Assembly (NCBI GenBank): GCA_949289845.1
Contig: CASEPN010000001.1
Coordinates: 306,887-370,886, forward strand
From: an uncultured Bacillota bacterium
Lineage (GTDB): Bacteria; Bacillota_I; Bacilli_A; RFN20; CAG-826
Length of the DNA stretch: 64,000 bases
Direction: 5' to 3'
Position numbers and translations under genes: made by a program. Positions 2,640 to 6,087 of this stretch are shown piece after piece. The notes beneath the pieces are model-generated. The model worked only from the letters and a program-made list of their open reading frames with translations, had not been told where the DNA came from and ran no database searches. Numbering within the stretch: position 1 is the first letter of the stretch; each line of letters begins with the position of its first letter.

Positions 2640-3776
2640 ATGGCGCTTTATCTCAGGCCTTCCTCCCTCGAGGTCCGTTCCCTCCTGGGGCTTGGGGAAG
2701 GGAAGCTCGACTTCGGGGAGCGGAAGAGGATCCGCAAGGGGACCTTCGACCCCGCGATCCCCTCATTTTTCGGGCTCTACGGATATAACGGCTCCGGCAA
2801 GAGCGGCTTCATCAGCGCCTTCCGCATCCTCCGGGCGTTCCAGAAAGGGCAGTCCCCGGAACGGAAGGCCGGGGACTTCGTCAAGGCGGGGGAGAAGGAG
2901 TGCTCCATCCTCCTGGAATCGCTTGTCATGGAGGAGGAGCGGCCCCTCGCCTTCCTTTCCTACGAGCTTTCTTTCTTCAAGGAGGAAAGGAAAGGGAAGA
3001 AGGGCAAGGAAAGGCTCCTATATCGCCCGATCGAGGGAAATAGGCTGGGGAGACCCCTCGTCCTGCTTGCTAGGGAAGCATTCGGGGAGGGGGATGGTTC
3101 CTTCCTCGGGACGGTCGGGCACCCCTATTCCTCCCTTCTGAGGAACACCCTTCGGGACGAGCTCCTCGTCTTCCCCTTCGACGAGAGGGAGGACACCCAG
3201 TTCCTCCGCCTCCTTCGCGGAGGGTCCGTCTCTCTCGAGGAGGGGGAACGGTGCAGGGCGAGGCTTCTTTCCTCGCTCGAGGCGGTCTCCCATCTCCTTG
3301 CCTTCGAGATCGACCTCGAGGTAGGGGAGAAGGACGGCCGGGCCATCCTCCTTTCCTCCAAGGGCGAGGAGAAGATCCCCTATCTCCTCGAATCCGCGGG
3401 GACGAGGAAGCTCCTGCTCCTCCTTTCCTCCCTGGCCCCCTACCTTACGAGACGCTCCGCCTGGGCGATCCTCGACGAGGTGGACGCGGGGATCTTCGAG
3501 TATCTCTTCGGCGAGCTGATGCGCTCCCTCTACCAGAGGGGCAAGGGGTCGCTCCTTTTCACCTCCCACGACCTCCGAACCCTCGAGACGCTCCCCCACC
3601 ACCACGCGCGTTTCGCCTCCCTCCTCGCGGAAGGGCGCTTCTACGAGATCAAGGCGGCAAAGGGGGAGAACCTCCGCGACCTATATCTCCGGAGCCTCGC
3701 CCTCAGGAGCAAGTACCCCGGGGAAGACATCCCCGCGTTCATGAGGCGGGCGTCGCGCCTTGGAGGGGACGAGTGA
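2640..3776 (+). CDS. AAA15/OLD-like ABC-type ATPase, possible defence protein
   Basis: 378-residue ATPase of the AAA_15/AAA_21 type, the kind found in RloA, AriA (PARIS) and OLD-like systems. Walker A is GYNGSGKS (48-55). An ABC signature-like SAGTRK lies at about 252-257, Walker B is AWAILDEVDAG (274-284, Asp279-Glu280), and a switch His follows in FTSHD (about 310). The middle part (about 80-200) is charged and not recognisable. There is no transmembrane segment. The start has no ribosome site but a -10 box 5 nt upstream. The stop overlaps the next start (TGATG), so the two genes are translationally coupled. Family-level ATPase assignment is firm; a defence role is inferred from the pairing with a TOPRIM-like protein. 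A housekeeping RecF/SbcC-like role is less likely because long coiled coils are missing. Confidence 0.75.
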   Translation: MALYLRPSSLEVRSLLGLGEGKLDFGERKRIRKGTFDPAIPSFFGLYGYNGSGKSGFISAFRILRAFQKGQSPERKAGDFVKAGEKECSILLESLVMEEERPLAFLSYELSFFKEERKGKKGKERLLYRPIEGNRLGRPLVLLAREAFGEGDGSFLGTVGHPYSSLLRNTLRDELLVFPFDEREDTQFLRLLRGGSVSLEEGERCRARLLSSLEAVSHLLAFEIDLEVGEKDGRAILLSSKGEEKIPYLLESAGTRKLLLLLSSLAPYLTRRSAWAILDEVDAGIFEYLFGELMRSLYQRGKGSLLFTSHDLRTLETLPHHHARFASLLAEGRFYEIKAAKGENLRDLYLRSLALRSKYPGEDIPAFMRRASRLGGDE

Positions 3777-4501
3777 TGGGCGCGATCCTCTTCCTCACCG
3801 AGGGCGTCACCGACGTGATGACCCTCGAATCGCCTCTCCGCTCCCTCTTCCTGAGGGAGGGCGAGGAGCGCCCCCTCTTCTTCCACGCCGCGAACGGCGA
3901 CCTCACCTCCAAGGGATCCTCAAGGACGAAAAGCACGAGGGACTACATCAAGAAGGAAGTCATGGGCTTCCTTGCGGAGACGAAGCTCCGTCCCTCCGAC
4001 CTCGAGCTCATCGTCGAGACGACGGACCTCGACGCTTCCTTCGCAAGAAGGGACGCCTACGTGCAAAGCGAGGAGGTCTCCCGCCAGACGTACGTCCCCG
4101 AGGAAGGAAGGGCCTACGTAGAGGATGCGGAGGGGCTCTTCCAGATGAGGAAGCAGAAGGGGGAGAACCTCCTCTTCCTCGTTGAAGGGAGGACCCTCTG
4201 GCTCAAGAGGGAGAAGATTCCCCACCTCATCTGCTACTTCTCGATAAACCTGGAGCACGCCCTCTACGACGAGCCCAACTGCAGGAGCCACGAGAAGAAG
4301 GAGCTGGCGTTCCGCTTCGAGGAGAAGTACGCGGACGACCCCGATGCCTTCCTTTCCCTTCTCAAGAGGCTCGGGAAGGAGAGGGGGGACTACCTTTCCT
4401 CCTGGGGGGAGGCGCTCCTCAAGGACACCGCCTTCCAGCGCGGGAGCAACCTTTACCAAGGGGTGAGGATCCTCCTGGGCGAGGCCCCTCTTCCGGCATA
4501 G
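3776..4501 (+). CDS. TOPRIM-like protein partner of the AAA15 ATPase
   Basis: 241 residues. The N-terminus (ILFLTEGVTD; Glu9, Asp13) and a downstream hydrophobic strand ending in an acidic pair (LIVETTDLDAS; Asp84, Asp86) match the E...DxD layout of TOPRIM nucleases such as RloB, AriB (DUF4435) and the OLD C-terminal domain. A later Asn-Leu-Glu-His segment (about 158-161) lies where RloB-like proteins have another conserved acidic/aromatic motif. The start codon overlaps the ATPase stop, giving a strict two-gene operon ended by the hairpin at 4502-4531. In known ATPase-TOPRIM pairs the ATPase senses infection and holds or releases the nuclease. That this pair works so is inference. The TOPRIM call rests on short motifs only. 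Confidence 0.5.
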   Translation: MGAILFLTEGVTDVMTLESPLRSLFLREGEERPLFFHAANGDLTSKGSSRTKSTRDYIKKEVMGFLAETKLRPSDLELIVETTDLDASFARRDAYVQSEEVSRQTYVPEEGRAYVEDAEGLFQMRKQKGENLLFLVEGRTLWLKREKIPHLICYFSINLEHALYDEPNCRSHEKKELAFRFEEKYADDPDAFLSLLKRLGKERGDYLSSWGEALLKDTAFQRGSNLYQGVRILLGEAPLPA

Positions 4502-4531
4502 AAAAAAGGGCTCTTTTTTCAAAGAACCCTT
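4502..4531. terminator. Terminator between convergent genes
   Basis: AAAAAAG (4502-4508) can pair with CTTTTTT (4513-4519). Alternatively AAGGG (4506-4510) pairs with CCCTT (4527-4531) around an inner CTTT/AAAG. The A-run and T-run flanks suit termination from both sides, between the TOPRIM gene and the convergent lipoprotein gene. Confidence 0.55.
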
Positions 4532-4544
4532 GCAGAACCCTGTT

Positions 4545-6068
4545 CTAAAGAGAGGTTTTCCTAGTGAATCCGTCGAAGTTCCAGCGGATTTTCGCGACCT
4601 TCCCGTCCTCCGGGTAGGCGGAGTACTCCTCCAGGAGCCAGCCCGTTTCCTCGCTCCTCCAGACGGTCTCTTCCTTGAGGAACATGTTCGTCTCCCAGTC
4701 GTAGGAGACCTCCCTTTCGTAGATGTCGTCCTCGTTGACCGTCTCGCCGCCCCCGTATTCCTTCGCATAGTCGTAGGAGGCGGGGAGGTATTCCTCGCGG
4801 GTGAGTACGCTGCACTAGGCCCTGGTCCTGACCTGGTCGGGGGTCCCGTCGTACCAGGCGCGGGTCATGTCGCCCTGCGTGAACTCCGACATCATGTAGT
4901 CGCTGACGTAGTTGGGCGTCCCGCATCCTTCCCAGGGGGACTCCGCCCACTTGTAGATCGTGTTGATCCAGCGGTCGAAGTAGTTCATCCGCTCGTCCAC
5001 GTAGGCCCCATTGGTCCAGCCGGTCCTTTCCATGCTGATCTCGACGTCGGTGCCCTTGGAGGTGAGGTAGTGCCCGAGCTCCACGTTCTCCTCATCCTGG
5101 TAGAGGAGCCATGAGGAGCCATCCGTCAGGACCGCCTCGCAGTAGACCCCGTGCCTCCCGTTCTGGGGATCCCAGTCCCCGTCGATCTTCAGGGTGGAGA
5201 AGCCCCGGAGGAAGGAGGGGAGCTCGTCGGTCTCGCCTTCGAACTGGATGCTGATCTCCTCGTGGAGGGGAGGGTTCGGGTCGAGGTCGCTGAACTGGAT
5301 CGTGGATTCGGCGAGGCTCACGGAAAGAGGCCCTTCCAAGCTGGATCCGGTCAGGCGGTTCGTCGTCCCGAAGGTCGCGCCCCAGTCGGCCTCGATTTCC
5401 TGACCCTCCATCCGGAGGGAACGGACGAGACCTTCCGCGTCGACGTCCACCTCGAGGGATTGCCCTTCCTCCCCTACCTCGAGGCCGGCGGTGTTCATAC
5501 GGAATATGTATCCGCCCGTCTCAGGGAACTCGAGGTCTACGTAGGGGTATAGGAGCTCCGGGATCTCGTAAAGGACGAGCCCCGCCTCGACGGGGTCGGC
5601 GAGCATCCGGAGCGACTCCATCGCCCCCGACTCCTCGAGGAACCGCTCGGCGTCCTCCTTGTCCAGGAGGCCTTCGACGGAGCCTTCCTCGCCCGGCTCG
5701 CGGAGGAAGATCGTATAGCAGGACCAGTCGTAGTCCTCGCCGGGGGTCTGGGGAAGGAAGAGGGTCTCCCCGCTTTCGGGATCGACGTTATGGAGGTACT
5801 CGGGAATTCCTTCAAGGGAGTCGAAGATGACTTCCATGAGTCCTTCCTGCCCTCCGGCGGCAGCCTCGACCTTGACCCGGCCGCGCGCTTCGGCCGCGGC
5901 GATCCCGTCCTGGCCGTCGATCATCTCCTGGAGGCGGAGCACCTCCTCTTCGTTCGTCCCGTCCCCGATCTCGATGGGAGGGAGCTTGGACGTCGAGGAA
6001 TCGCCATCCCCGCAGGAGGCGAGGGAGGCGATGAGGGGAAGGAGAAGCAAGGGATTGATTTTCTTCAT
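4545..6068 (-). pseudogene. Lipoprotein gene with in-frame amber stop
   Basis: The intact N-terminal part (6068 to 4815) encodes 417 residues. It begins MKKINPLLLL and carries a type II signal peptide with lipobox LASC, then an acidic Ser/Asp-rich linker. The ATG at 6068 is preferred over the in-frame GTG at 6080 because GAGGTG lies 4 nt upstream. The frame hits TAG at 4815-4817. The same frame then stays open for another 89 codons with ordinary protein composition (for example DYAKEYGGGETVNEDD and GWLLEEYSAYPEDGK) to a TAG at 4545-4547. The simplest reading is a nonsense mutation in a roughly 506-residue lipoprotein. The extracellular part is not recognisable. A sequencing error is also possible. 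Confidence 0.6.
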
Positions 6069-6087
6069 AAGGCACCTCACCAGAGGA

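Follow-up and report, generated by a model that had tools for sequence, protein, structure and literature searches.

A two-gene ABC ATPase and Toprim-fold module beside pnp in an uncultured Bacillota bacterium, probably an antivirus system related to but outside the named ones

The window, the whole stretch of 64,000 nucleotides that was analysed, corresponds to C1:306887-370886 of a 1.30-Mb assembly in four contigs. Two genes lie after pnp on its plus strand. Gene A (2640-3776) codes for a 378-aa ABC-type ATPase, and gene B (3776-4501) codes for a 241-aa Toprim-fold protein, a predicted metal-dependent nuclease. Both open reading frames lie where the preliminary description had placed them and, as it had noted, they overlap by TGATG, whose A is common to the two; a good Shine-Dalgarno sequence, GGAGGGG, precedes the ATG of gene B. 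The window is GC-rich, and other open frames overlap those of A and B. Measured against two sister genomes, G018 and G026, dN/dS is 0.16 and 0.14 for gene A and 0.05 and 0.13 for gene B, close to the 0.08 and 0.09 of pnp against the same sisters, and the reading frames and the A-B order are kept in homologues down to about 22-28% identity. These low values and the two-gene order kept in distant homologues show that A and B are real genes and not high-GC open frames, and the two evolve together under purifying selection. Both proteins had been called smaller than typical; this holds for A, since most relatives have about 445-513 aa, but not for B, which is of normal size in its own family.

A terminator-like hairpin, AAGAGGAGG-gcga-CCTCCTCTT followed by a T-rich stretch, lies between pnp and gene A on the plus strand (2472-2493); it is a consensus match only, and three such hairpins were found versus 3.3 expected in shuffled sequences. 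Just 5' of gene A there is a possible promoter on the same strand, ATGATA-16-TATAGT, TG-extended (2607-2634), for which one found versus 0.2 expected in shuffles is no evidence of function. Given the hairpin that separates it from pnp, the pair is probably transcribed from a promoter of its own. On the 3' side of gene B a further terminator-like hairpin (4506-4531) has its T-run on the minus strand, and it therefore more clearly serves the adjoining gene that converges on gene B and codes for a predicted lipoprotein of 421 aa (4818-6080, minus strand), in which no Pfam match was found.

Protein A belongs to the ABC-type AAA_21 ATPases, of the same kind as Rad50, PtuA, AbiLi and AriA, in agreement with the earlier reading of it as an AAA15-type ATPase. 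It matches Pfam AAA_21 at 38.2 bits (E=2e-9), above the gathering cut-off of 27; its best PADLOC model is AbiLi (PDLC02335, E=2.3e-15), followed by AriA (1e-10), and both models match 39/39 homologues at E <= 1e-5, the best AbiLi match reaching 7e-35. The Walker A motif is GYNGSGKS (around residues 47-54), the signature is a degenerate ESAGTRK (251-257), the Walker B and D-loop read ILDEVDAG, and the H-loop histidine is H310. Across 39 diverse homologues Y47, G48, N50, G51, G53 and K54 of Walker A are invariant, as are S252 and G254 of the signature, D279, E280 and D282 of the Walker B/D-loop, and H310. The AlphaFold2 model (pLDDT 88.8) is nearest to Rad50 heads and to PtuA of retron and Septu systems, with Z about 19 (18-19 for PtuA).

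Protein B is named by no model in Pfam, NCBIfam, PADLOC or PHROGs. Among 40 members of its family there are weak Pfam matches to Toprim in nine (best 2e-4), to OLD-like_TOPRIM in five (best 0.003) and to DUF4276 in five (best 0.002), and with so few and such weak matches DUF4276/HEC-01B was rejected as its family; a genome search with PF14103 gave no match anywhere and carries no weight either way. The call of a TOPRIM protein, which had rested on short motifs, was upheld by structure prediction, so that the finding that could have overturned it, a second protein lacking this fold, did not occur. AlphaFold2, run on an alignment of 40 sequences, gave a model with pLDDT 95.2 and pTM 0.91, and VIA-align placed first the Toprim domain of the Thermus scotoductus OLD protein (6p74, Z 8.8, 153 residues, rmsd 4.0) and second the Burkholderia OLD protein (6nk8, Z 7.2), with the next unrelated row, the background, at about 6.3. 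Foldseek alone returned nothing at E <= 0.001, and the OLD proteins came out on top only in the second look with VIA. A fold search of BFVD gave nothing significant, its most convincing row being an RloB-like phage protein (TM 0.44/0.49, probability 0.93, E 0.05), and a search of PDB sequences with the B profile gave chance matches only (best E 0.15). With hhalign, B aligned to the OLD Toprim over the first motif only (E about 2e-4, probability 31-48%), and profile-profile comparisons with OLD Toprim and RloB alignments found little beyond that motif (E 2e-4 to 0.05); consequently, sequence cannot place B within either group.

The conserved acidic residues of B are of the OLD type. The metal ligands of TsOLD are E377, D381, D431, D433, S478 and E480, plus R487, and E377/D381...D431/D433 are needed for cleavage (PMC7049728). 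In B, D84, D86, S156, N158 and K174 are invariant among 40 diverse homologues and E9 and D13 nearly so; K128, W210, R222 and N225 are also invariant or near-invariant. The series E9, D13, D84, D86, S156-x-N158 and K174 runs in the same order as the TsOLD ligands, and the E-x3-D and D-x-D spacings are equal in the two proteins. The VIA alignment starts at residue 3 of B and residue 371 of OLD, a register that would put E9 on E377. At the likely places of the metal-B motif, S-x-E in OLD, and of the catalytic Arg/Lys, B has the invariant S156-x-N158 and K174, and an invariant asparagine appears to stand where OLD has its second metal-B residue, E480. From the model, B is predicted to be a metal-dependent Toprim nuclease.

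The family of B is found in 7/37 genomes of the genus, 20/222 of the order and 21/391 of the class. Its 59 named loci are mostly in Clostridia and Bacilli, with others in metagenome-assembled genomes labelled Treponema and Deltaproteobacteria. This patchy presence at each level makes the pair an accessory module scattered in Firmicutes, and the universal conservation expected of a housekeeping function, which would have spoken against defence, was not seen. Gene A is directly 5' of gene B in nearly all loci with upstream DNA, and in 17/17 neighbourhoods checked by BLAST. Furthermore, the trees of A and B agree (Mantel r = 0.87, with 0/2000 permutations as high), an agreement to which shared ancestry contributes. 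A and B thus co-evolve, and the pair is obligate. Such a distribution bears on whether the pair could be a host nuclease for DNA repair or genome maintenance, SbcCD/RecN-like or Cran1-like, that is often lost. The fold of A, nearest to Rad50 and PtuA, would suit that role, and there is a precedent in the archaeal OLD protein Cran1, which is essential and not antiviral (PMC12796447). The pair is, however, present in about 5-10% of related genomes, on mobile elements and beside defence genes, and most close relatives lack it, several of them with an intact pnp-glpO junction; we regard a repair function as improbable.

Within the genus, the pair follows pnp in the genome of the window (G000) and in G018, G022, G011 and G029, and in G026 the contig that carries it is too short to include pnp. 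It forms a clean insert, pnp-A-B-glpO, in G022 and G029, and in seven sister genomes (G004, G005, G007, G017, G023, G028 and G030) pnp is directly followed by glpO with no pair between them. Four other sisters have an ADP-ribosylglycohydrolase gene after pnp: G012, G002, G035 (L167, L169, L170) and G019 (L192), with glpO confirmed as the next gene in the first three. With this gene in place of the pair, the position next to pnp resembles a hotspot for cargo genes. One further genome of the genus, G034, has a divergent pair at another site, not after pnp. The preliminary description had the pair standing alone beside pnp and away from any obvious defence island; this is so in the window, but elsewhere its relatives sit among defence genes. 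The setting among core genes, outside any defence island, counts against an immune role, and the fact that several species of the genus have kept the pair in the same place would fit a domesticated host function as well. Another reading is an RNA-metabolism accessory tied to pnp and RNase J: in the window the pair has pnp on one side and an RNase J gene on the other, and in another family it immediately precedes def and an RNase J gene. Yet pnp and RNase J genes can lie near each other without the pair, the pair occupies other places in G034 and in most other genomes, and a terminator-like hairpin separates pnp from gene A, all of which makes a tie to RNA metabolism very improbable.

Outside this site the pair is found on mobile DNA. 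It is carried by four plasmids, of Ruminococcus, Lysinibacillus, Paenibacillus and the fusobacterium Cetobacterium, and by a 132-kb Clostridioides phage record, pCD1602_4, in which the genes around it resemble virion and antirepressor genes. In Sporosalibacterium and Alkaliphilus it lies within a 14.3-kb stretch of 95.5% identity, a shared transfer element of at least 14 kb to which stretches in Fusibacter, Petromonas and Anaerovirgula are related; the gene just 3' of the pair on this element matches VirB4/TraG-type P-loop ATPases, with Tad-like and recombinase-like genes nearby. Relatives in viral collections are few, which counts against an immune module: one phage record carries one, and IMG/VR scans with alignments centred on the window found none, while one contig emerged when the alignment was centred on a typical member. 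On this contig (L212, 3400-5160) the A gene is accompanied by a B that looks broken, and the two adjoin a PD-(D/E)XK-like ATPase gene, a SocA-like/PemK-like gene pair and an integrase.

The neighbours of the pair were also compared with PADLOC. The 117 neighbour proteins of 17 loci matched 108 models at E <= 1e-10, against five models for 116 proteins from 12 arbitrary stretches of 12 of the same genomes, where these counts are of models, which are redundant, and not of genes. The matches near the pair include AbiEi, AbiD, an AbiLi-type ATPase, type I and II methyltransferases and a type II endonuclease, and none of the five control models is from those systems. With names given partly by sequence reading, the pair adjoins a Dcm-type methylase and a nuclease in G129, HsdM- and HsdR-like genes in G243, AbiEi in G467 and an AbiD-like gene in G097. 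From its mobility and its neighbourhoods we infer that the pair probably acts in phage defence.

Further ATPase genes were seen around some of these loci. G038, a genome of the same order as that of the window, has split ATPase-Toprim systems of two kinds on a single contig: within about 22 kb it carries a separate OLD-like Toprim open reading frame of 200 aa (L138 8053-8652), just after it an ATPase-RloB/AbiLii pair (L138 8821-10682, C7:38821-40682), and pair A-B (L097 7701-9784, C7:57700-59783). In G063 (L103 9314-11231) a second AAA_21 ATPase of 464 aa is directly 3' of the pair, and next comes a protein of 174 aa for which Pfam gave no match; these two are possibly another two-gene defence module in tandem. 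In G243 remnants of a second A-type ATPase gene (L198 12968-13984) lie near the intact pair and the HsdM- and HsdR-like genes.

A compact operon with overlapping genes, carried by plasmids, by a phage and by a transfer element, is also what would be expected of a toxin-antitoxin or addiction pair, in which A neutralises a toxic nuclease B and the pair mainly stabilises plasmids, integrative elements (ICEs) or prophages, with defence as a side effect or absent; moreover, AAA:TOPRIM pairs neutralise in E. coli (PMC10440598). Several observations oppose this. The PARIS pair is no toxin-antitoxin system, as deletion of either gene is harmless (PMC9122126). In the genus, the pair shows long retention at a chromosomal site and strong purifying selection. 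Protein A is a full ABC ATPase that keeps every catalytic motif, beyond the needs of a plain antitoxin, and the A-then-B order is kept without a DNA-binding autoregulator. Addiction is thus an unlikely main role, although it is less unlikely than a function in repair or RNA metabolism.

We consider it likely that A and B together make up an immune module of two proteins, an ATPase sensor or gate with a Toprim nuclease effector, of a split OLD/PARIS/AbiL-like kind. Several lines of evidence lead to this reading. The Toprim model of B is nearest to OLD nucleases, with ligand spacing equal to that of TsOLD; across Firmicutes both proteins keep their catalytic residues with little or no variation; and among named models A fits best the ATPase of AbiL, a phage-exclusion system. 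The pair is obligate and patchily distributed, with agreeing trees; plasmids, a phage and a transfer element carry it, and empty pnp-glpO sites occur in the genus. It has AbiE, AbiD and type I and II restriction-modification neighbours, which the 12 control regions lack. Related pairs give further support: PARIS defence needs both genes and both active sites (PMC9122126), and the AAA:TOPRIM pairs of C. algidicarnis and S. agalactiae behaved as neutraliser:toxin in E. coli (PMC10440598). Counting against an immune module, the profile of B resembles that of OLD Toprim domains at the first motif only, and E480 appears to be replaced by an invariant Asn.

AriB of PARIS is a two-metal tRNase (PMC12409363), and AbiLii is the toxic effector in L. 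lactis. By analogy with these systems, A would assemble with B and, in an ATP-dependent state, would keep it inactive, sense a sign of infection, or both. A trigger would then release or activate B, whose two-metal active site would cut nucleic acid, either tRNA or DNA, and phage replication would be stopped by cell shutdown, as in abortive infection, or by degradation of the phage genome. A tRNase, as AriB is, is slightly favoured over a DNase for B, only by analogy with split systems.

ATPase/Toprim pairs are among the largest groups of prokaryotic immune effectors. To our knowledge, split forms are identified only by a match to DUF4435 or RloB. With a third effector family that is coherent, counts dozens of intact members in Firmicutes and is modelled in none of Pfam, PADLOC and NCBIfam, defence catalogues would gain a further system that can be detected. 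As a small effector (about 230 aa, predicted pLDDT 95), B would offer a system for how ABC ATPases gate Toprim nucleases, and its family could help to ask how the choice between a tRNA and a DNA target is made. The literature searched, in which bioRxiv preprints were outside the scope, held no description of this Toprim family.

Compared with known systems, the pair has the architecture of split ATPase/Toprim defence systems, as the preliminary description had proposed: an ABC ATPase, intact by motifs and fold, and an adjacent Toprim-fold partner with E...DxD ligands that VIA-align finds most similar to OLD nucleases. Membership of one of the named systems was not borne out. When the proposed check against PADLOC and other profiles was run, A matched AbiLi, AriA and AAA_21 and no model claimed B, whose family matched neither DUF4435 nor AbiLii and gave a single weak match to RloB. 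AbiL (AbiLi and AbiLii of Lactococcus) and RloA-RloB resemble the pair in having an ABC ATPase followed by a Toprim-type partner. Among 40 B-family members none matched the PADLOC model of AbiLii (PDLC02337) at E <= 0.1 and one matched RloB (PF13707) at E 0.053, and genome searches with PDLC02337 found RloB loci and no B-family locus. AbiLii/RloB in related genomes is a protein separate from B, and G038 has both kinds. The pair thus has the AbiLi-type ATPase without an AbiLii/RloB-type partner, and its assignment to AbiL or RloAB was rejected.

PARIS (AriA and AriB) likewise has split ATPase and Toprim genes, and protein A passes the published AAA_21 threshold, with 38.2 bits against 27; the detection rule also requires DUF4435 at 27 bits or more (PMC9122126). 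DUF4435 (PF14491) was found in 0/40 B-family members at E <= 0.1, and with an AriA-type ATPase and no DUF4435 partner the pair was not assigned to PARIS. OLD proteins of classes 1 and 2 (P2 Old, TsOLD and GajA of Gabija) share with B the Toprim fold and the metal-ligand spacing, but in OLD and GajA the ATPase and Toprim domains form one protein, whereas A and B are separate open reading frames in the window and in its relatives. No UvrD-like, GajB-type neighbour of the pair was seen, and in the absence of both this neighbour and the fusion, OLD and Gabija were ruled out. PtuA of Septu and retron systems resembles A in fold, but its partner is an HNH nuclease, whereas that of A is a Toprim protein.

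The pair is therefore probably an uncatalogued antivirus system, related to PARIS, AbiL and OLD but outside them, and current annotation tools miss it because there is no model for its effector. We more tentatively suggest that it represents a distinct, unnamed, Firmicutes-centred class of split OLD type, carried on plasmids, ICE-like elements and phages, with an S-x-N variant effector and probably with its own trigger and substrate. Another two-gene AAA and Toprim system from a Firmicute is the NetFlax pair AAA(D29):TOPRIM_OLD(D60) of Streptococcus agalactiae 2603V/R, which has been assayed as toxin and neutraliser (PMC10440598). Compared by description only, its D60 toxin could belong to the B family, and if it does, one member of the family has already been assayed for toxicity.
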